A stretch of DNA of 34,991 bases from a virus. Numbering within the stretch: the stretch's first letter is position 1; each line of letters opens with the position of its first letter. The stretch is taken from positions 1 to 34,991 of IMG/VR virus record IMGVR_UViG_3300017783_000093, one strand, 5' to 3'. Positions 21,223 through 29,534 of the stretch are shown here, one piece after another. A program made the position numbers and the translations under genes. The notes beneath the pieces are model-generated. The model was given only the letters and a program-made list of their open reading frames with translations. It did not search any database and had not been told where the DNA came from.

Positions 21223-24200
21223 ATGGCCTTTTATAACTTAGATAATTACCTAGACTCTATAGGTGCACCTAGTGAAGTTGAGTCTACTCCTGAGCCTATC
21301 TTTAGTGATGACGTAAAGCTAAATGTCAATGACCTAAAGAAGAACACTATGTACACGCAGCCCATTCGAGATTACATGATTGAGCGTAAGGGCATCGACT
21401 ACAAGAAACTGTCTGATGAAGAAGTTGTAGACGACTTTGTGCAGCACATGCGTTACTTCAACGCTAACACAGTATCTACTGCTGGTGAGGTACGCTTTGT
21501 TAGTAAGGCTAATGACAGACAAAAGCAGACAGCACGTAGAGCGTATGACATCTACGATCAGCTAGGAAATGTGTTCCAAAACGATGGACTCATGGGTGCT
21601 GTGTCTGGCGTAGGTGACTACGTATTTGCTGCAGCTAAAGACCCTACCAACTACCTTGGTCTACTTACTGGTGGTTTAGGACGTGCTGCTGCAGGTGGTG
21701 TGTCCATTACAGGTAAGCAAGCGGTAAAGGCTGCTGTGCAACGCGCTGGGCGTGAAGCTCTTCAGTCAGGCGCTACTATGGAGGCTGCTAGAAAAGCTGC
21801 TGAAGCTGCAGGTAGGGAAGCGGCAAGACGTGCTGCATCACAGGGCATGGGTAAACGTGCATCTAACAACGTATATAAGAACGTTACAGACAAGGTGCAG
21901 AAAGAAGGTAGACGTGCTGTAGCTAAAGACGCAATGAGAGCTAAGCAACGTGAATTGTTTGAGACTGCAGCCACACGATCTCTGTATCAGACTACAGCAC
22001 TAGACTCCACTGCTGCTGTACTGCAGGATGTGATGGCACAACAAACCCAGCTAGAAGTAGGATCTCAAGAGAAGTACAGCTATCTACAGACAGGGTTCTC
22101 TTCTTTGCTGGGTGGTGTTGCTGGTGCAGCACAGCTAGGCTTCGGTAAGATGCGTGGTACGTCAGGCTTAGAGGATACTACATCTGAGCTAGACAAACTT
22201 ACCGCACGTACTATCGAAGAATACTCCCCTATCATAAAAGAGAAAGACTCTGCTGAAGCTGCTAAGGCTATCGGTGATGCTATTGATAAGTGGAATGCTA
22301 AGGTAGAAAAAGGTACACCAGGCTACAAAGACATTGATGAGTCACAACTTATTAAAGAGATGATCTTCGGTGAGCCTAATGAGGAAGGTAAGATTGGTGG
22401 CCTAGCTGGTTTCTTTAAAGATAAAGGCTATCAGATCAGCAAAGAGGTACACGTATCAGATGTTATAACAAACGTTGCAAACTCTCTTACACAAGAAGAG
22501 CTAAAAGGTATCAACAAAGTCATGGGTAAATACACATCCATGCAGTTCGGTAACTTGTCAGGCTCTCGTGTAAAGCTAGGTGATCTTATGGCTGCACGTT
22601 TAAGTGAAGCTGGTAAGACTTTGAACGTAGCATCACAGCTAAGCAAGATGATGGACGCTGGACTACTTGCTGCATCTAAGAAGATCGACGATCAGGTAGG
22701 TGAGATCGACGCTAAAGAAGCTGCAAAAGCTAAGGGTGCTGACAGACTACGCTATGGTCAATCCGTATGGAAACGTTTACTTGTTTCATCCCCTGCTACA
22801 ACAGCATTGAACGTTGCAGGTTTTGGTCAGTTCTACATTGGACAGACTATCGCTGATTTGTTTAGCTCTACAGCCTTGATGACACAGGGCTTGGCTCAGA
22901 TGGCAACAAACAGAAAAGCTGCACAAGAAAGCTTCAGACAAGCCTCTGCACTACGTATGGTACAGGCACAGAAGATCCGCAACCTTCTAGACCCTTACAC
23001 TACGCACGATGCATACATGAAGTTCCTAGACGAGAACAAAGATGTAGAGAAGGTCTTGTTTGAAACTATGGCAGGTGGCATTGAGCAGAAAGCTAGTCGC
23101 TATGGCATAGACCCCAATGATCCTACCTATAGAAAGATTGAATCTGTAGCTAATGCAGCCAATCAAATCACTGGCGTTAGGGTTCAGGATACGTTTACTA
23201 AGTCTCAGATGTTCATGACTGAGATGGATAAGTATCTACGACTAGAGAAAGGCATGACTCTAAAAGAAGCTATGCTTTCTGATGATACAATCATTGATGA
23301 AAAAGTAATTCAAGCGGCACTAGACGGTACACTTAAGTCTGTGTTTGCTAAGGACTACACAACAGCAGAACAGCCAGAGCTTGTTCGTACTGCAGCTAAA
23401 CTTGTGGAGAACCTATCTAACACCCCAGGCATTGGTACACTGATACCATTTGGTAGATTCTTTAACAACGTTCTAGCTACAGCATATCAGTGGTCACCCC
23501 TAGCTGCGCCTGAGTTAATACTCAAGCCGTTCTACAAGAAGATTGCTAAACAGGAAGCTAGAGATATAACTGAGATGGAAGCCTACTCACGCATGGTAGT
23601 GGGTACCACTGGTATTTTACTTGCATCAGAGTATGACACCCAGCGCAGAGAGCAAGGGCTTGGTGTGTATGACGTAGACGTAGGCGGCGGTACTATTGTA
23701 GATGCTAAGAACACGTTCCCATTCTCTGCATTCCTTGCTGCAGGGCGTATCTTTAACATGAAACGTAACAACGAGACTGTACCACCTGAGCTTATCCAAG
23801 AGCTAGGCACACAGGTAGCTATTGGTCAGGTGGCACGTGATGCACAATTCGGTAATGACTTAAACAATCTTATCGACATTATGGTTAACGCAGATGAAGG
23901 TGCAAGAGGTGCTACCTTTGATGCGTTTGCTAAGGCTGCAGGTAACTTTGTAGCAGGTACCACACGTCCTTTAGATGCGTTCAACAAAGTTGTAGGCTTT
24001 GCTATGGGTACAGATGGAGCTAAGGATGTGCGTCAAGCAGACGGTTTCAACATCTTTACTCAAACATCTACTAAGTACATCGACAATATCCTAGAAGCAT
24101 TCATTGATAAGACTGACACTATCACTGGTGAAGACTTAGCTGTGGCTACACGTGAAGGAGAGATCTATGATCCTAACCCATTCGCTCGTCTGTTTGGTAT

Positions 24201-24672
24201 TACTATTAAGCCAGGCCGTACTGCTACAGAGAAAACATACTCAATGGCAGAGATGCAACCTTGGACAGCCAACGAGCGTACCAAAGTACCAGCATACGAC
24301 AAAGCTCTGAATGCTATGCTTGCTTCAGTGTTAGAGCAACAGACAAACAGGCTACTTGCTACTGAAGAGTTTACCAAAGGCAACCTTACCCAGCGCCGTG
24401 CAATGCTTAAGAAAGTAATGCGTGATGCTAAGAAGCAAATCAAAGAGCGTATGGAAAAAGGCTATGGTGGCAGCGAGAGCGTACATCTACGCATGGTTGC
24501 TAAAGCTAATAGCAAGTACAACAAAGAGATACGCAACGAAGCAGCAAAGGCTATGAAAGAAACCTTTGGCATAGAGGGTAGCTTAGAAGATTATAACTTC
24601 GCTGAGTTGGATCTGTTTATGGAATACGCAGATTATCTAAACGATATGTATCAAGAGGCTGCTAGTTTTTAG
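21223..24672 (+). CDS. Large internal/ejection virion protein
   Basis: 1149 residues, the last gene of the late operon. It starts MAFYNLDNYLDSIGAPSEVE. Residues ~140-260 are Ala/Arg-rich helices (GREALQSGATMEAARKAAEA), ~285-310 and ~520-560 hold mildly hydrophobic Gly/Ala stretches (SSLLGGVAGAAQLGFGKM; TTALNVAGFGQFYIGQTIAD) that could insert into membranes, and the C-terminus is charged helix. Size, helical content and terminal position in the virion operon compare with T7 gp16 (1318 aa), which is ejected with DNA, but no transglycosylase motif is visible; the lysozyme activity appears to sit in the 603-residue protein instead. The end of the gene overlaps the convergent minus-strand gene by 11 bases. 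Confidence 0.55.
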   Translation: MAFYNLDNYLDSIGAPSEVESTPEPIFSDDVKLNVNDLKKNTMYTQPIRDYMIERKGIDYKKLSDEEVVDDFVQHMRYFNANTVSTAGEVRFVSKANDRQKQTARRAYDIYDQLGNVFQNDGLMGAVSGVGDYVFAAAKDPTNYLGLLTGGLGRAAAGGVSITGKQAVKAAVQRAGREALQSGATMEAARKAAEAAGREAARRAASQGMGKRASNNVYKNVTDKVQKEGRRAVAKDAMRAKQRELFETAATRSLYQTTALDSTAAVLQDVMAQQTQLEVGSQEKYSYLQTGFSSLLGGVAGAAQLGFGKMRGTSGLEDTTSELDKLTARTIEEYSPIIKEKDSAEAAKAIGDAIDKWNAKVEKGTPGYKDIDESQLIKEMIFGEPNEEGKIGGLAGFFKDKGYQISKEVHVSDVITNVANSLTQEELKGINKVMGKYTSMQFGNLSGSRVKLGDLMAARLSEAGKTLNVASQLSKMMDAGLLAASKKIDDQVGEIDAKEAAKAKGADRLRYGQSVWKRLLVSSPATTALNVAGFGQFYIGQTIADLFSSTALMTQGLAQMATNRKAAQESFRQASALRMVQAQKIRNLLDPYTTHDAYMKFLDENKDVEKVLFETMAGGIEQKASRYGIDPNDPTYRKIESVANAANQITGVRVQDTFTKSQMFMTEMDKYLRLEKGMTLKEAMLSDDTIIDEKVIQAALDGTLKSVFAKDYTTAEQPELVRTAAKLVENLSNTPGIGTLIPFGRFFNNVLATAYQWSPLAAPELILKPFYKKIAKQEARDITEMEAYSRMVVGTTGILLASEYDTQRREQGLGVYDVDVGGGTIVDAKNTFPFSAFLAAGRIFNMKRNNETVPPELIQELGTQVAIGQVARDAQFGNDLNNLIDIMVNADEGARGATFDAFAKAAGNFVAGTTRPLDAFNKVVGFAMGTDGAKDVRQADGFNIFTQTSTKYIDNILEAFIDKTDTITGEDLAVATREGEIYDPNPFARLFGITIKPGRTATEKTYSMAEMQPWTANERTKVPAYDKALNAMLASVLEQQTNRLLATEEFTKGNLTQRRAMLKKVMRDAKKQIKERMEKGYGGSESVHLRMVAKANSKYNKEIRNEAAKAMKETFGIEGSLEDYNFAELDLFMEYADYLNDMYQEAASF

Positions 24673-24868
24673 TGCCGTGACATTCGGCTGACTCCTCTGC
24701 CCATAACGTACAAGCTTGTAGATGTGTCTTGGCTTGATCTGTTTCGTGGCAGGGGTGTAAGCTGTTATCAATGTACTCTTCTACATAAGTGATATACTCA
24801 CGTAGTTGCTCTTTAAACTGCGCTCTCTTCTTGACTATGTGTTCCATAGCTTCTTGTTCTAGTTTCAT
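24662..24868 (-). CDS. 68-aa helical protein, candidate Acb2/Tad1-type hairpin (cyclic-nucleotide sponge)
   Basis: 68 residues; the last gene of the minus operon. Its ATG overlaps the stop of the endonuclease VII gene (ATGA), and its own stop overlaps the last late gene by 11 bases tail to tail. Residues ~3-33 form one charged helix (KKRAQFKEQLREYITYVEE) and residues ~43-60 a second (ETDQAKTHLQACTLWAEESA), separated by LHPC. The second helix follows P-x2-E-x5-T-x-L-x5-W-A. From memory, Acb2/Tad1-type hairpin proteins (sponges for CBASS or Thoeris signal molecules) carry P-x3-E-x5-T-x-L-x5-W-A. The match is suggestive only: the common 'IAR' after WA is missing, and no family N-terminal motif is obvious. 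Otherwise it is a hypothetical two-helix protein. Confidence 0.5.
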   Translation of the reverse strand: MKLEQEAMEHIVKKRAQFKEQLREYITYVEEYIDNSLHPCHETDQAKTHLQACTLWAEESAECHGTKN

Positions 24869-25284
24869 TTTACTCTCTCTAAATACTTTATTGCTCTTTC
24901 AAGCCCCTCTATACTATCCCCTAGAGAACCCAGCCCGTTATTACATTGAGGGCAGAGCCACCCTCTAAACTTACCTGTCTTATAGCAGTGATCCAAGTGT
25001 AACCCTAATGTAATTTCTGATGCAGGTCTACTACAGCAATCACATTTATCTGGCTTAGTATGCATATATTCTTTTTTAAGACGTGTGGTAATAGCGTTGT
25101 TCCTATTATTACACTCTTTACAAATACCTTTTAAGTGAACCTTACCTGATTGTTTAGATGCTCCTATATGAAAATTATCCTTTATCCAAGGCTTTGATTC
25201 ATTACAAACATAACAGGTTTTATGTCTTACCTGTTCGTCTGTGTTATCCTCTGATAGCGTAGAAGGAAAAAGATCTAATTGCAT
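24865..25284 (-). CDS. Endonuclease VII-type HNH nuclease with extra zinc ribbon
   Basis: 139 residues with GGAG five bases before the ATG. The C-terminal half is a T4 endonuclease VII fold: Cys81-x2-Cys84, then LHLDHCYKTGKFRGWLCPQC containing Asp98-His99, and Cys111-x2-Cys114-Asn115; the zinc Cys pairs, the DH and the Asn all match the HNH/ββα core that binds one metal and cuts branched DNA. The N-terminal half adds another Cys pair set (Cys24-x2-Cys27 and Cys55-x2-Cys58), a zinc ribbon also seen in related phage HNH proteins. The likely job is resolving Holliday junctions before packaging or attacking host DNA. It could alternatively act as a homing-type nuclease, but its operonic fit argues for a phage function. 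Confidence 0.75.
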   Translation of the reverse strand: MQLDLFPSTLSEDNTDEQVRHKTCYVCNESKPWIKDNFHIGASKQSGKVHLKGICKECNNRNNAITTRLKKEYMHTKPDKCDCCSRPASEITLGLHLDHCYKTGKFRGWLCPQCNNGLGSLGDSIEGLERAIKYLERVK

Positions 25285-25492: not shown

Positions 25493-25713
25493 GTAAGGTA
25501 TTCCTTTAGTTCTGTGTACCCTCCAATGTGCGTCCCTTTGTCATTGAAGATCTGTGGTACTGTGGTTATACTGGAACGCTTCAATAAGTATAGCAACCAT
25601 GCACTAGACTTAGATTGAATATTGTATTCTACGTACTGAATACCATTACCCTTCATTAAAGCCTTAGCATCATCGCAGAAGTTACATTGATCACGTGTTA
25701 TTATCACGTACAT
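25486..25713 (-). CDS. Glutaredoxin
   Basis: 75 residues. Active site Cys10-Asn-Phe-Cys13 after a short strand (YVIITRDQC), the cis-proline TVP at residues 51-53, and the glutathione-binding GG at 64-65 followed by YTEL are all present. It would reduce disulfides with glutathione. Two genes away is the class II ribonucleotide reductase whose C-terminal Cys pair needs re-reduction each cycle, so this is the probable electron donor. The first 23 bases overlap the end of the DUF1289 gene in another frame. The CNFC site differs from the common CPYC, which may shift redox potential; this is inference. Confidence 0.9.
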   Translation of the reverse strand: MYVIITRDQCNFCDDAKALMKGNGIQYVEYNIQSKSSAWLLYLLKRSSITTVPQIFNDKGTHIGGYTELKEYLTC

Positions 25714-25891
25714 CTTTTCTCCATTTCAGTTCATATAACAGTTTCTTCTGTTCGTACTCAGATAGTATCATCCAATCACGTATCTCGTCAACTGTTCTCT
25801 TACACCCCACACACTCATCGTTTTCAAGTCGACATATACGTATGCAGGGTGAAGGTGTTTTACCTAGGCGGTGAGATCTACGATTTCGCAT
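25691..25891 (-). CDS. DUF1289 family small zinc-binding protein
   Basis: 66 residues. The core PCIRICRLENDECVGCKRTV, then DEIRDW and LSEYEQKKLLYELKWR, is the DUF1289 pattern: Cys pairs C16-x3-C20 and C27-x2-C30 for a metal, an R-T-x-x-E-I-x-x-W segment and a helix. DUF1289 proteins are common in alphaproteobacteria and turn up in their phages, without a tested function. The gene overlaps the end of the ribonucleotide reductase gene by 28 bases and the start of the glutaredoxin gene by 23 bases, so it is almost certainly co-translated with them and may work in the same redox or nucleotide step. No other start codon removes both overlaps. Confidence 0.8.
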   Translation of the reverse strand: MRNRRSHRLGKTPSPCIRICRLENDECVGCKRTVDEIRDWMILSEYEQKKLLYELKWRKDVRDNNT

Positions 25892-27765
25892 ACGTCACCA
25901 GAGCAAGCCATTGTCTGCATGGCTACTGTGTTGTCCTCTTGCTCGTACTCAGATAGCTTAGTCCAGTCTACATTAGTTGGCATCTTAGCTAGTAGCTCTT
26001 CGTACTCTTCCTTAGTGCAGTCCTGATAAGGCGCTTGCTGATAAGTATGATCTGAGTGTGGCAAGAAAGACACACCTGACATCTCGTCAAAGTGTTTGAA
26101 CACGAATGCACCTACTTCTAGCCATTCAGAGTCACGAACTGAGATAGTCACCGATGGTTTATGCTCACACCAGTGTCGCTGATACGTTAACCACGTCTCT
26201 AGCTGTTCGATAGCTGTCATATCGTTACGTGTCACTGCACCTGCAGGAGACTTCTGAGGGAAGCTGAAGACTGTAGTAGTATCGCCCTTGAATACACATG
26301 GCTCGTTAGGAATACCTTGATCAATCATCATCTGTGTTAGTGGGTCTTTGTTATCACCACGTACAGTGCGGATATAAAAGGGGCTATGACGAGCGTGTAT
26401 ACCACTGGCGCTGTCCACCAACTGCGAGACAGTACCGCTAGGCTTGACGCAGGTAATCGAAGCGCTATGAGGGATACCAAGACGATCAGCCCACTCAGCG
26501 TTAGTGGCGACAGCAATACTTCGTAGATGCTCAAGAGTTTTCTCCAATCCTCTGTTCTTGCTTGTGAGTAGCGGGTTATCCATTATCCCTGTAAGAGACA
26601 CGCCAAGCAACCTCTCTTCCTCAGTATTCTTCTGCCACACCTTTCGCAAGTATGGGAACTTTGTGAGTGTTGACTGAATGGTACCAAGGATAGTAGCCAA
26701 CTTAACCTTACGCTCTAAGTCTTCAATGCTATCTGTTGCACGTACTACGCACTCTGTTAGGTTGCAGAACTGATAAGGTCTGAGGATTATCTCAGAACAG
26801 GGGTTCGTCCCGAAGTCAAACTCAGGGTTACGTCTACCAAACTTTGCCACTTGTTTCTTAGATGCTTCACGGTTGAATACTCCACGCTCACCAGACTTAG
26901 ACTCTACAAGGGCGGTCCACTCACGCATGAATGTCTCTACGTCAGGCTTCTCAGTGTATGACACAGAGTTGTTAGCCAATGCACGATGCGCTGCAGTTTC
27001 CCACCACTGTCCTGACTTAGCGTGACGCATACGGTCATCACTCAGGTTAGACAAAGAGATCATAGCAGAACGGCGAACACCCCCTACCACAACGATCTGA
27101 CCAATGAAGCACATAAGGTCATGACATTCTAGTGACGACAGCTTACGTCCTTGTGCATTCTTGAATGTAGATACAGCAAAGTTAAACAGTTCTACTAGTG
27201 GCGCTGGGCCTGATGCACGTCCACCAAACGTTTTAAGTCTTGCACCTGCAGGACGAACCTTTTCTACGTTCCATTTAGGAATCTCACCAGCCCATAGGAG
27301 TGCAAGAACTTGACGGAAAGCCTTAGCCCAACCTTCTTTACTATCTCTAACCATGACGGTAGTTTCACTGTCGTAGAGCGTAGGCACTTCGGGGAGCTTC
27401 GATATGTATTGTCGTTCAACAGAGAAGCCGACTCCAGTACCGCACAAGAGGATGTACATCGCTTCGTCGAAGCTCTTAGGGTCATCTACGGGTAGATATG
27501 AACAGTTGTATCCTGCTGTGTTGTCACGCTCAAGCGCTGGGCCAGCAGTCATCATAGCTCTCATAGATGGCATGATGTCTAGGCTCAGGATAGCATCACG
27601 AATCTGATTAATGTAAGAGTCATCTCCTGCTGCAGGACGCACAACGTTATCCATGTAACGCTCTACTGTTTCGTCCCAGTTCTCACGCCCTTTGCCATCG
27701 AAGTACTTAGCGTACCGTGACTTGTGAATGAATGACTGATAGTCTGTTGGTAATAAGTTGCTCAT
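25864..27765 (-). CDS. Class II (adenosylcobalamin-dependent) ribonucleotide reductase
   Basis: 633 residues, shorter than Lactobacillus leichmannii RTPR (739), to which it is most alike in layout. The thiyl-radical segment reads Asn321-Pro-Cys323-Ser-Glu325, with Cys334 eleven residues after Cys323 and Cys88 in NTAGYNCSYLP as redox partner: this matches RTPR Asn406/Cys408/Glu410/Cys419/Cys119. The C-terminal tail holds Cys621-x4-Cys626, the re-reduction pair. No R2-type partner gene is present, in keeping with a B12 radical source. It reduces ribonucleotides to deoxyribonucleotides for phage DNA, presumably NTPs given the monomeric RTPR form. Its start overlaps the MazG stop (ATGA), and glutaredoxin lies downstream. 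Confidence 0.9.
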   Translation of the reverse strand: MSNLLPTDYQSFIHKSRYAKYFDGKGRENWDETVERYMDNVVRPAAGDDSYINQIRDAILSLDIMPSMRAMMTAGPALERDNTAGYNCSYLPVDDPKSFDEAMYILLCGTGVGFSVERQYISKLPEVPTLYDSETTVMVRDSKEGWAKAFRQVLALLWAGEIPKWNVEKVRPAGARLKTFGGRASGPAPLVELFNFAVSTFKNAQGRKLSSLECHDLMCFIGQIVVVGGVRRSAMISLSNLSDDRMRHAKSGQWWETAAHRALANNSVSYTEKPDVETFMREWTALVESKSGERGVFNREASKKQVAKFGRRNPEFDFGTNPCSEIILRPYQFCNLTECVVRATDSIEDLERKVKLATILGTIQSTLTKFPYLRKVWQKNTEEERLLGVSLTGIMDNPLLTSKNRGLEKTLEHLRSIAVATNAEWADRLGIPHSASITCVKPSGTVSQLVDSASGIHARHSPFYIRTVRGDNKDPLTQMMIDQGIPNEPCVFKGDTTTVFSFPQKSPAGAVTRNDMTAIEQLETWLTYQRHWCEHKPSVTISVRDSEWLEVGAFVFKHFDEMSGVSFLPHSDHTYQQAPYQDCTKEEYEELLAKMPTNVDWTKLSEYEQEDNTVAMQTMACSGDVCEIVDLTA

Positions 27766-28142
27766 CGGTTATCTCCGCTTCCTTTTAGTTTACCGCGCTT
27801 CTGACGGTCATCTAGCTTCTCTATATTAAGTTGCAGCACTTCCTGCAACCCTCGTCCGTAAATGTTTGCTAGTGCTGTAGCGTAGAATACTACGTCACCT
27901 AGCTCTTTCATGATCTCTTCATTCTGGAAACGGTTGCTGTCACGGATCAACTTCTTAATCTTTTCTGCAACCTCACCAGCTTCTCCTACTAGACCTAGTG
28001 TATTCTCGACTAAGCGATCTGAACCTGATGTGAGTATCTTCTTCTCTACCCACGCAGAATACAGATCTGCCCAATCTACTTCGTCACTATCTGTAAAGTT
28101 TTCATAGTAACCGAAGTTTTCTAAGTCATCTCCACTCAACAT
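27762..28142 (-). CDS. MazG-like NTP pyrophosphohydrolase
   Basis: 126 residues. The MazG motif is visible as Glu54-Ala-Gly-Glu57 in NTLGLVGEAGEVAEKIKKLI and Glu80-Leu-Gly-Asp83 in KELGDVVFYATALA; these acids hold Mg and act on (d)NTPs. Helices before and after fit the four-helix all-alpha NTP pyrophosphohydrolase fold. In phages MazG may trim non-canonical nucleotides or alter (p)ppGpp levels; the substrate here is not visible. It is coupled to the ribonucleotide reductase (ATGA overlap downstream) and to the small gene upstream (TAATG). Confidence 0.9.
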   Translation of the reverse strand: MLSGDDLENFGYYENFTDSDEVDWADLYSAWVEKKILTSGSDRLVENTLGLVGEAGEVAEKIKKLIRDSNRFQNEEIMKELGDVVFYATALANIYGRGLQEVLQLNIEKLDDRQKRGKLKGSGDNR

Positions 28143-28306
28143 TATCGCTCCTTCACTGTTAGGTTTTCTATTTCTACATCGTCAACGTCATACATTACGC
28201 TAGTGATGAGATCGTGTACATCTTCCTCATGATTGTCCTCATAGGCAGACAAGAAATTGTTATCCTCGTCTACCTTCACCACGAATGTTACGCTAAACTT
28301 TCTCAT
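28142..28306 (-). CDS. Small acidic hypothetical protein
   Basis: 54 residues from the ATG at 28306 (MRKFSVTFVVKVDEDNN). I prefer this to an ATG 18 bases upstream because it makes an ATGA overlap with the DUF3310 stop, like its neighbours; the upstream one also has a plausible AGGA site, so the start is not certain. Predicted strand-loop-helix-strand with many Asp and Glu (EDNHEEDVHDL, DVDDVEIEN). No family recognised. The stop overlaps the MazG start (TAATG), placing it in the nucleotide operon. Confidence 0.55.
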   Translation of the reverse strand: MRKFSVTFVVKVDEDNNFLSAYEDNHEEDVHDLITSVMYDVDDVEIENLTVKER

Positions 28307-28530
28307 TTGTGAGTTTCCACCCATCGTTTACGCATCCTATTTAGATACCAGATAGCTTTATCAATATCCTCTAGGCCATTCTTGTATTCGCAGCGCCACA
28401 TATACTTGAGTACGTTAGCTGCCTGTGGCGCAATAGCTCCTGACATATTCTCTGTCATAGCTTCGATAGCATCAATACATTCGATGCCACTTTGATTGTA
28501 ATGAACTGGATTGTTTACTACATCCGTCAT
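28303..28530 (-). CDS. DUF3310 family protein
   Basis: 75 residues from the ATG at 28530, chosen because AGAGGG stands about six bases upstream and the ATG overlaps the preceding stop as ATGA; a longer form starting 24 bases earlier has no such site. The sequence shows the DUF3310 pattern: NPVHYNQSGIECIDAIEAM, then NVLKYMWRCEYKNG followed by LEDIDKAIWYLNRM. DUF3310 is widespread in phages near replication and nucleotide genes and is sometimes called a nucleotide-kinase-like protein, without proof. The conserved K-Y-x-x-R and D-x-x-K-A-x-x-Y-L residues suggest a nucleotide- or phosphate-binding helix pair. Confidence 0.8.
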   Translation of the reverse strand: MTDVVNNPVHYNQSGIECIDAIEAMTENMSGAIAPQAANVLKYMWRCEYKNGLEDIDKAIWYLNRMRKRWVETHK

Positions 28531-28874
28531 GCGCTGCCCTCTGTCTTTGTCCATCTATGCAACTTAATAACGTTGTCTTCTTTGGAGTATTTATTCTCAT
28601 TCTCTATCTCTTCTACGGAAGCTTGATATTGCTTAGGAAACATCTCTTCTAACAAAAGCTCTTTGTAGTAATCATACTCATCTAAGAACTCAGGATTATC
28701 TTCTAAGAATCTCTCTGTTGCTGCCATAGTAATAGCCATGTCCATAGAGTGTGACATTGCTTCACGTTCCTGTTCGTCACCAAACAACAAGCCTGTGTGT
28801 ATGGTACCAGTCCAACCGTGATCATCTACAATAGGTGTAAACACTATTGCTATTTGCCCTGGATCTAATTTCAT
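28527..28874 (-). CDS. Hypothetical replication-operon protein
   Basis: 115 residues from the ATG at 28874, six bases after GGAG; a GTG three bases further upstream is too close to that site. The protein starts MKLDPGQIAIVFTPIVDD and has a beta hairpin (GWTGTIHTGLLFGD), then helices with many Met and Glu, and a C-terminal segment EIENENKYSKEDNVIKLHRW. It resembles small, conserved hypothetical proteins of marine phages beginning with L-x-P-x-Q-x-A-I-V, without a function. Its start overlaps the endonuclease I stop by one base, and its own stop overlaps the DUF3310 start. Confidence 0.6.
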   Translation of the reverse strand: MKLDPGQIAIVFTPIVDDHGWTGTIHTGLLFGDEQEREAMSHSMDMAITMAATERFLEDNPEFLDEYDYYKELLLEEMFPKQYQASVEEIENENKYSKEDNVIKLHRWTKTEGSA

Positions 28875-29308
28875 CACACTCTCCTTTTGACTTTGAGTCT
28901 TTGTTCTTTTGAGCGATTACCTTTCTCAAGTAACCAACCTTCAGGTATGACACGATGCGCCCACTTGAAACCTTTCTGCTCACACCAATCACAATACCTA
29001 GACTTAGCCCCCTTGTAAAGCTTAGCGTTAGCGTTACTAAATACAAAGCGAATGTCTAGGGTGGGGTGTTGTCTCTGTATCTCAACATGCTTGCGTCTAT
29101 CTGCAGCACTGAAGATACCCTTAGTTTCTATTATAATACCGTTGTCTAACTCAAAGTCAGGCGTATAGGTGCGGTACTTAAGATCTTCCCATTCAATCTT
29201 AAGCTTCTCGTACTCAACTTTCTTTTGCCTAGACTTAAGAAAAGCAGCAGCCTCTTCTTCAAGGCCACTGCGATAAGTACGTTTAAGGTGTCTGCGTTTA
29301 GTCGCCAT
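28874..29308 (-). CDS. T7 endonuclease I-type Holliday junction resolvase
   Basis: 144 residues from the ATG at 29308 (MATKRRHLKRTYRSGLEEE); further upstream only a TTG is available. T7 endonuclease I (gp3, 149 aa) is matched along the length: SGLEEE with Glu17, YTPDFEL with Asp51, IIIETKG with Glu61 and Lys63, at the same spacing as T7 Glu20/Asp55/Glu65/Lys67; then RRKHVEIQRQHPTLDIRFVF, KLYKGAKSRYCDWCEQKG and RVIPEGWL. It is a dimeric PD-(D/E)XK nuclease that cuts four-way junctions and, in T7, degrades host DNA. It sits between the exonuclease and the small-gene cluster of the replication operon. A second, unrelated resolvase (endonuclease VII type) is encoded 3.6 kb downstream. Confidence 0.9.
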   Translation of the reverse strand: MATKRRHLKRTYRSGLEEEAAAFLKSRQKKVEYEKLKIEWEDLKYRTYTPDFELDNGIIIETKGIFSAADRRKHVEIQRQHPTLDIRFVFSNANAKLYKGAKSRYCDWCEQKGFKWAHRVIPEGWLLEKGNRSKEQRLKVKRRV

Positions 29309-29534
29309 CAGTCTTTTGATCTGGTAGCTTCTTAACCTCTTCTTCTGCAGGTGTCTCTGCGATCTGAACAATCATACCGCCTAGCTGATTGCAACGTGCA
29401 TCAAGTATACGCATCAAGTAGTCCATGCGCTGCATTTCTGAACGTGCAGCGTTGATCTCATTATAAGCAGACATCTGTTCTTCACTGAAGTCATCAGTGT
29501 AATAGTCTTTGTTATTGATAGTTAGTTTAGGCAT
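29298..29534 (-). CDS. Small DUF6447-like protein
   Basis: 78 residues from the ATG at 29534 (MPKLTINNKDYYTDDFSEEQ), because GGAG is six bases upstream of it; two upstream ATGs are possible but lack a proper site. The beta strand KLTINNKDYYTDDFS followed by a long coiled-coil helix (MSAYNEINAARSEMQRMDYL, MRILDARCNQLGGMI) is the arrangement I recall for DUF6447, a family of short phage proteins of unknown role. The C-terminal tail is charged. Located between the exonuclease and endonuclease I, possibly a small accessory of either; this is inference. Confidence 0.6.
   Translation of the reverse strand: MPKLTINNKDYYTDDFSEEQMSAYNEINAARSEMQRMDYLMRILDARCNQLGGMIVQIAETPAEEEVKKLPDQKTDGD

Follow-up and report, generated by a model that had tools for sequence, protein, structure and literature searches.

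Genomic context of the junction gene

The gene considered here is the last of its strand, ending where two gene blocks of a marine phage converge, and it raises the question of whether such a short product could sequester the cyclic nucleotide signals of host CBASS or Thoeris defence, as had been proposed from the letters of the sequence alone. The window, which is the whole 34,991 nucleotide stretch of IMG/VR record IMGVR_UViG_3300017783_000093, encodes a B12-type ribonucleotide reductase, glutaredoxin, MazG, family A DNA polymerase, DnaB-type helicase and endonuclease I. On the basis of this gene content, and of the 69 % identity of the 1149-aa convergent partner to a hypothetical protein of Roseobacter phage CRP-207, the phage can be placed in the HMO-2011 type, in agreement with the sequence-only reading. 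Phages of this type are described as a dominant and globally distributed marine group (PMC9038755). The junction gene (Table 1) starts with ATG and encodes a protein of 68 aa (MKLEQEAMEHIVKKRAQFKEQLREYITYVEEYIDNSLHPCHETDQAKTHLQACTLWAEESAECHGTKN). It overlaps the endonuclease VII gene by 4 nt and, as the initial reading had it, is terminal on its strand after a nuclease gene. The motif reported earlier is present exactly in the ORF translation (P39-x2-E42-x5-T48-x-L50-x5-W56-A57), with EESA directly after the WA. No match for the 68-aa protein was obtained with PADLOC.

Table 1 Features of the window that bear on the junction gene
Feature	Position	Strand	Basis or remark
68-aa gene, very probably an Acb2/Tad1-type helical hairpin	24662-24868, stop codon included	-	ORF, Pfam, hhalign, AlphaFold
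Recombination endonuclease VII, neighbour upstream of the hairpin gene	24865-25284	-	Pfam E 3.7e-20
1149-aa protein, convergent partner gene	21223-24672	+	3' ends overlap the hairpin gene by 11 nt
Helix 2 scaffold motif, E42 to A57 (codons 42-57)	24698-24745	-	Common to Acb2/Tad1 hairpins
Slot-linked N-terminal peptide KLEQEAMEHIV (codons 2-12)	24833-24865	-	Common to unrelated junction proteins
MazG pyrophosphohydrolase outside the slot, upstream of the RNR gene	27762-28142	-	Contrast case, lacks the LEQEA peptide

A family of constant length

Relatives of the protein are encoded by three isolates, the Roseobacter phages CRP-2, CRP-603 and CRP-207, and the family comprises about 155 IMG/VR loci, with a length that is constant at 67-68 aa. 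The dN/dS values of eight pairs (0.11-0.48) show that the family is under purifying selection and, with the length kept across these loci, indicate that the gene is real and more than a chance reading frame. In the loci examined it keeps its place at the convergent junction, but the gene upstream of it differs among related phages (endonuclease VII, a PhoH-annotated gene or another gene). Among 39 family members M1, E4, E6, A7, F18 and W56 are invariant, L3, L37, E42, A46, L50 and G65 are each conserved in at least 90 %, and the conserved pattern of the family reads E-x3-A-x3-L-x5-W. Relatives were not found in bacterial genomes in a search of limited sensitivity, for which a single peptide pattern was usable.

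Homology to the Acb2/Tad1 hairpins

Using Pfam, the window protein matched the Acb2/Tad1 hairpin family PF24729 with 17.3 bits (E 0.0054), which is under the gathering threshold of 27 bits and thus short of formal membership, and matches to the same family were found for 12 of the 39 family members (best E 0.003). Profile-profile comparison with hhalign of the hairpin family against 15 Acb2-type proteins gave a score of 40 (probability 95 %). The best of 200 column shuffles reached 19.7, the best of 200 seven-column block shuffles, in which real fragments are kept, 31.7, and the reversed profile 12.4. Against 70 further canonical Acb2-type proteins the family scored 36 (93 %), while T4 Acb2 alone, a proven sponge, scored 29.7 against the same 70 and two slot families unrelated to the hairpin scored 11-16. 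The profile search that the sequence-only reading had proposed thus yields a signal above shuffles, reversed profile and unrelated families alike, and that reading is not refuted on the terms it had set. When residues 1-12 were removed the score against Acb2-type proteins was unchanged, and the profile-level similarity extends across both helices.

The AlphaFold model of the 68-aa protein is a helical hairpin (pLDDT 95; helices 2-36 and 41-64). In a viral structure library the first-ranked match was an unnamed 68-aa protein (37 % identity), probably a member of the hairpin's own family, and ranks 2 and 4-11 all bore the name Acb2/Tad1 hairpin protein, the rmsd being 0.5-1.2 A for most of them, so that the modelled two-helix fold matches structures of the family. 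A fold search of the PDB returned no significant match (best E 0.61; Tad1 fifth, E 3.0, TM 0.39). When an early family profile (A1) was compared with PDB chains, Tad1 (8kbb) ranked first (E 0.12) and Acb2 homolog 43 (9ptq) sixth (E 0.76), both of them weak matches. Nothing was found when the PDB chains were searched with the window protein as a single sequence, a result that says little because a canonical Acb2-type protein used in the same manner reaches the Acb2/Tad1 chains only at E 0.2-0.3. Among the PHROGs, the unnamed phage family phrog_1454 was matched by 16 of the 39 members (best E 6e-7). It is also matched by T4 Vs.4 (Acb2), and is therefore more telling than phrog_423, whose endonuclease VII matches (E 0.008; 3 of the 39 members) were attributed to chance similarity between helices; on the basis of these hits, phrog_1454 is probably an unannotated Acb2-type family. 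Considering the sub-threshold PF24729 match, the profile-profile comparison with its controls, the A1 matches in the PDB and the viral fold search together, profile and structure comparison make it very probable that the 68-aa protein is homologous to the Acb2/Tad1 hairpins.

Residues kept and lost relative to known sponges

Like the PF24729 proteins, which include PaMx33 Acb2, T4 Vs.4 and the C-terminal hairpin of Tad1, the members of the family are short phage proteins (mostly 65-90 aa in PF24729) with a helical hairpin and an E-x3-A-x3-L-x5-W-A scaffold. Tad1, however, carries an N-terminal beta-sheet domain before its hairpin, which is absent from the 68-aa protein, all-helical in its model. 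Residues were compared between 70 canonical proteins and the 39 family members, with positions numbered as in Paenibacillus phage WildCape. The scaffold residues E46, A50, L54, W60 and largely A61 are kept, while Y12, H13, R27, R45, E55, N62 and R67, which occur in 66-70 of the 70 canonical proteins each, are not. There is no conserved arginine at the R45 position in the 39 members, and the position aligned to the aromatic N-terminal residue of sponges (Y8 in T4) holds K, Q, H, E, M or R. T52 is retained in only 3 of the 39, among them the window protein (T48), and the threonine of the motif can thus not be upheld as a family feature. Furthermore, the N-A-A-I-A-R that follows the tryptophan in PF24729 proteins is replaced, and a conserved aromatic and basic N-terminal segment is missing, with a different peptide fused in front. 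The initial impression of a shorter N-terminal part was mistaken in so far as many short Acb2-type proteins are likewise 65-70 aa long, and the N-terminus has been replaced and not truncated.

In T4 Acb2, Y8 (equivalent to Y12) is required for cyclic-dinucleotide binding (PMC12657218, PMC12657230), F82 stacks on the ligand (PMC12657218), and the T68M substitution, at the equivalent of T52, is described as reducing affinity (PMC12657230). T4 Acb2 itself lacks R45, E46, E55, N62 and R67, and the losses in the hairpin family are therefore compatible with binding. We take Y11 of PaMx33 Acb2 to be the T4 Y8 equivalent, the aromatic residue that the N-terminus contributes to the cyclic-dinucleotide pocket, and its R67 to be the arginine of the trinucleotide site (R45 in WildCape numbering); these equivalences, like that of K26, were in part read from an alignment. 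The known Acb2 ligand pockets are not conserved in the family. The proposal of a nucleotide sponge stands with respect to remote homology to the Acb2/Tad1 family, on the profiles and the fold search, but a sponge is not established, with most ligand-linked positions replaced.

An N-terminal peptide that follows the genomic slot

Residues 2-12 of the hairpin do not originate in Acb2-type proteins. They belong to a 12-residue peptide with the consensus LEQEAxx[FHWY], or roughly L-E-[QEK]-E-A-x-x-[FHWY]-[ILMV], which also begins the MazG proteins HMO-2011 gp21 and CRP-345 gp39 and is found near the start of CRP-13 gp34 and CRP-9 gp35, each of the four being encoded by the last gene before the same convergent junction. 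The unrelated peptide-bearing proteins of this slot include MazG enzymes, a small protein here termed YFAG, and a 43-residue microprotein. The N-terminal segment of the hairpin has thus been replaced by a slot peptide which is also the start of three unrelated proteins of sister phages.

When distinct MazG homologues whose downstream gene could be assessed were compared, the LEQEA peptide was present in 10/10 at the junction and 0/32 elsewhere (Fisher test 7e-10, a value that is only indicative because the MazG sequences are related). A slot survey was based on 80 loci chosen through the HMO-2011 convergent partner family and not through the peptide, 77 of which were uncut by a contig end. The peptide was encoded in 72 of these 77 slot genes (67 by pattern and five in the 43-aa microprotein), while the remaining five (L273, L279, L280, L281 and L297) contained a Na/Pi-cotransporter-like or other membrane protein instead. 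The description of the gene as accessory therefore holds to the extent that different genes can fill the slot, which, however, is hardly ever without a member of the set. Relatives of the YFAG protein, in a search seeded by the peptide, lay at a convergent junction in all 77 assessable cases. A scan of 2.9 million viral contigs for the exact codon pattern of MKLEQEA recovered 61 loci, comprising 40 hairpins (35 by rule and five on reading), 18 MazG proteins and three others, of which one was cut by a contig end and two were unrelated, with the ATG within a longer frame; the hairpin and MazG loci were at the convergent junction in 51 of the 51 assessable cases. The third codon positions of the peptide vary almost freely, with GAA and GAG at about 1:1 and GCT, GCA, GCG and GCC all in use, and the DNA upstream of the peptide codons differs between slot families. 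When compared by hhalign, the hairpin family aligned to the MazG family at residues 1-14 only, and to the YFAG family at residues 3-13 only. The MazG contrast, the slot survey, the YFAG relatives, the codon scan, the synonymous variation and the hhalign comparisons together show that the peptide is conserved at the protein level and is tied to the slot rather than to a protein family. Besides the window copy, unrelated slot proteins that share the peptide were recorded at L186:3887-4270, L188:3494-3856, L187:3675-3926 and L191:5327-5575. The endonuclease I protein (28874-29371) also contains a LEEEA, but this stretch lies inside the family sequence (SGLE...) and was put down to coincidence.

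Occupants of the junction slot

The slot MazG proteins (HMO-2011 gp21 and CRP-345 gp39) share the genomic slot and the LEQEA-type N-terminal peptide with the hairpin, but are all-helical pyrophosphohydrolases that are unrelated to it past residue 14. The AlphaFold model of one slot MazG places a separate helix at residues 2-15, which is only a hint because of the low confidence of the model (pLDDT 65). In the YFAG-type protein several to about 20 residues precede the motif. This protein (L187:3675-3926; relatives L352-L431) often carries an AT-hook-like KKPRGRPPKKK ahead of LEQEAQEF, with Pfam AT_hook below its cut-off. The 43-aa microprotein (MSLEEEAKKFLQQRN...EWFLEQLKKKGA in L324), which carries the peptide, is also found in L333, L334, L335 and L345, on the minus strand and about 12 nt past the stop of the convergent partner; it has no Pfam match.

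Possible functions of the hairpin and the slot peptide

The explanation that we favour, and to which we would give about an even chance when taken as a whole, is that the protein is an Acb2-type hairpin which has diverged and is plausibly an oligomeric binder of a nucleotide signal, occupying a swappable slot behind a common targeting or docking peptide. The gene very probably encodes a diverged member of the Acb2/Tad1 fold family in which the 12-residue helical peptide stands where the N-terminal segment of Acb2 helps to build the cyclic-dinucleotide pocket. The hairpin may still oligomerise and may bind a nucleotide-type signal of host defence in a pocket remodelled relative to Acb2/Tad1, and would thus act as a counter-defence protein, while the peptide would dock or deliver whichever protein fills the slot to one common partner. 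Of these components, shared docking or targeting through the peptide appears reasonably likely, while sequestration of some nucleotide signal by the hairpin is a tentative proposition that we put slightly short of evens.

A classical Acb2-type sponge, forming a hexamer and sequestering the cyclic di- and trinucleotides of CBASS in the manner of PaMx33 or T4 Acb2, would agree with the shared fold and scaffold residues, with the retention in the window protein of T48, the equivalent of a T4 residue whose substitution (T68M) is described as lowering affinity (PMC12657230), and with the absence of several canonical residues from the proven T4 sponge. It is nevertheless unlikely, considering that neither the aromatic N-terminal residue nor the R27 basic residue nor the R45 arginine is a conserved feature and that T48 is confined to 3/39 members. 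The positions conserved most strongly, which lie in the slot peptide (E4, E6, A7) and the core (F18, A46, L50, W56) and not in a ligand pocket, would also suit a fold repurposed as a structural or adaptor hairpin that binds no signal, its peptide leading it to a partner of the phage's own, for instance the replication machinery or the virion, and the company of MazG and of a protein of unknown function in the slot fits such a role. Yet the characterised structures of the fold family are sequestering proteins and the other commonest occupant, MazG, acts on nucleotides, and we regard repurposing as rather unlikely.

Short helical proteins are prone to spurious matches, and a generic two-helix protein with a fortuitous E...A...L.....W pattern would account for the RasGAP_C score, which for the window protein alone is slightly better than that of PF24729, as well as for the insignificant PDB fold search. 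This is highly improbable given a family profile score twice the best of the 200 column shuffles and far above unrelated families, the dominance of Acb2/Tad1 hairpin proteins among the best viral structures, and the fact that RasGAP_C is matched by 3/39 members as opposed to 12/39 for PF24729. The replacement of unrelated genes by one another behind a common 5' end could likewise mark a seam of recombination or a regulatory element at the DNA level, the encoded peptide having no role of its own. The nearly free third codon positions, the dissimilar upstream DNA and the internal position of the YFAG motif argue against this, and render it quite improbable. Returning to the diverged hairpin behind a common peptide, a more speculative extension, which we consider doubtful, is that the slot forms a counter-defence cassette in which hairpin, MazG, YFAG protein and microprotein are swapped behind one delivery peptide, loaded into the virion or docked on a common phage machine, and are thereby active as soon as infection begins. 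A phage MazG-like protein, Atd1, is described in a review as countering abortive infection (PMC10419184), which would fit nucleotide-signal counter-defence as a theme of the slot. The slot MazG may also simply serve nucleotide metabolism (PMC9038755).

Precedent and wider occurrence

The internal proteins Ip1-3 of phage T4 are unrelated small proteins with a common N-terminal leader, encoded in a hot spot of related phages, and are injected inhibitors of type IV restriction (PMC12373910, PMC3012670). As with the capsid-targeting sequence of Ip1-3, the slot proteins of HMO-2011-type phages are alike in the N-terminal leader only, and the junction slot shows the same combination of unrelated proteins, leader-only likeness and a variable slot. 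By analogy, the T4 internal proteins are the nearest precedent, although the slot proteins are known here from genes alone, with one tagged gene per genome and in a different type of phage. In the literature consulted on HMO-2011-type phages, no counter-defence gene is named for the group. In such phages a diverged Acb2-type hairpin would give the sponge fold a new ligand or function. The slot-linked peptide, a finding beyond the original claim, is the more surprising part and may be more interesting than the hairpin itself, since the occupants of a variable slot can be recognised by it in a simple way and it suggests a common delivery or docking signal that is directly testable. Elsewhere in the window, small DUF1289 and DUF3310 genes (25691-25891 and 28303-28554, minus strand) flank the nucleotide-metabolism block.
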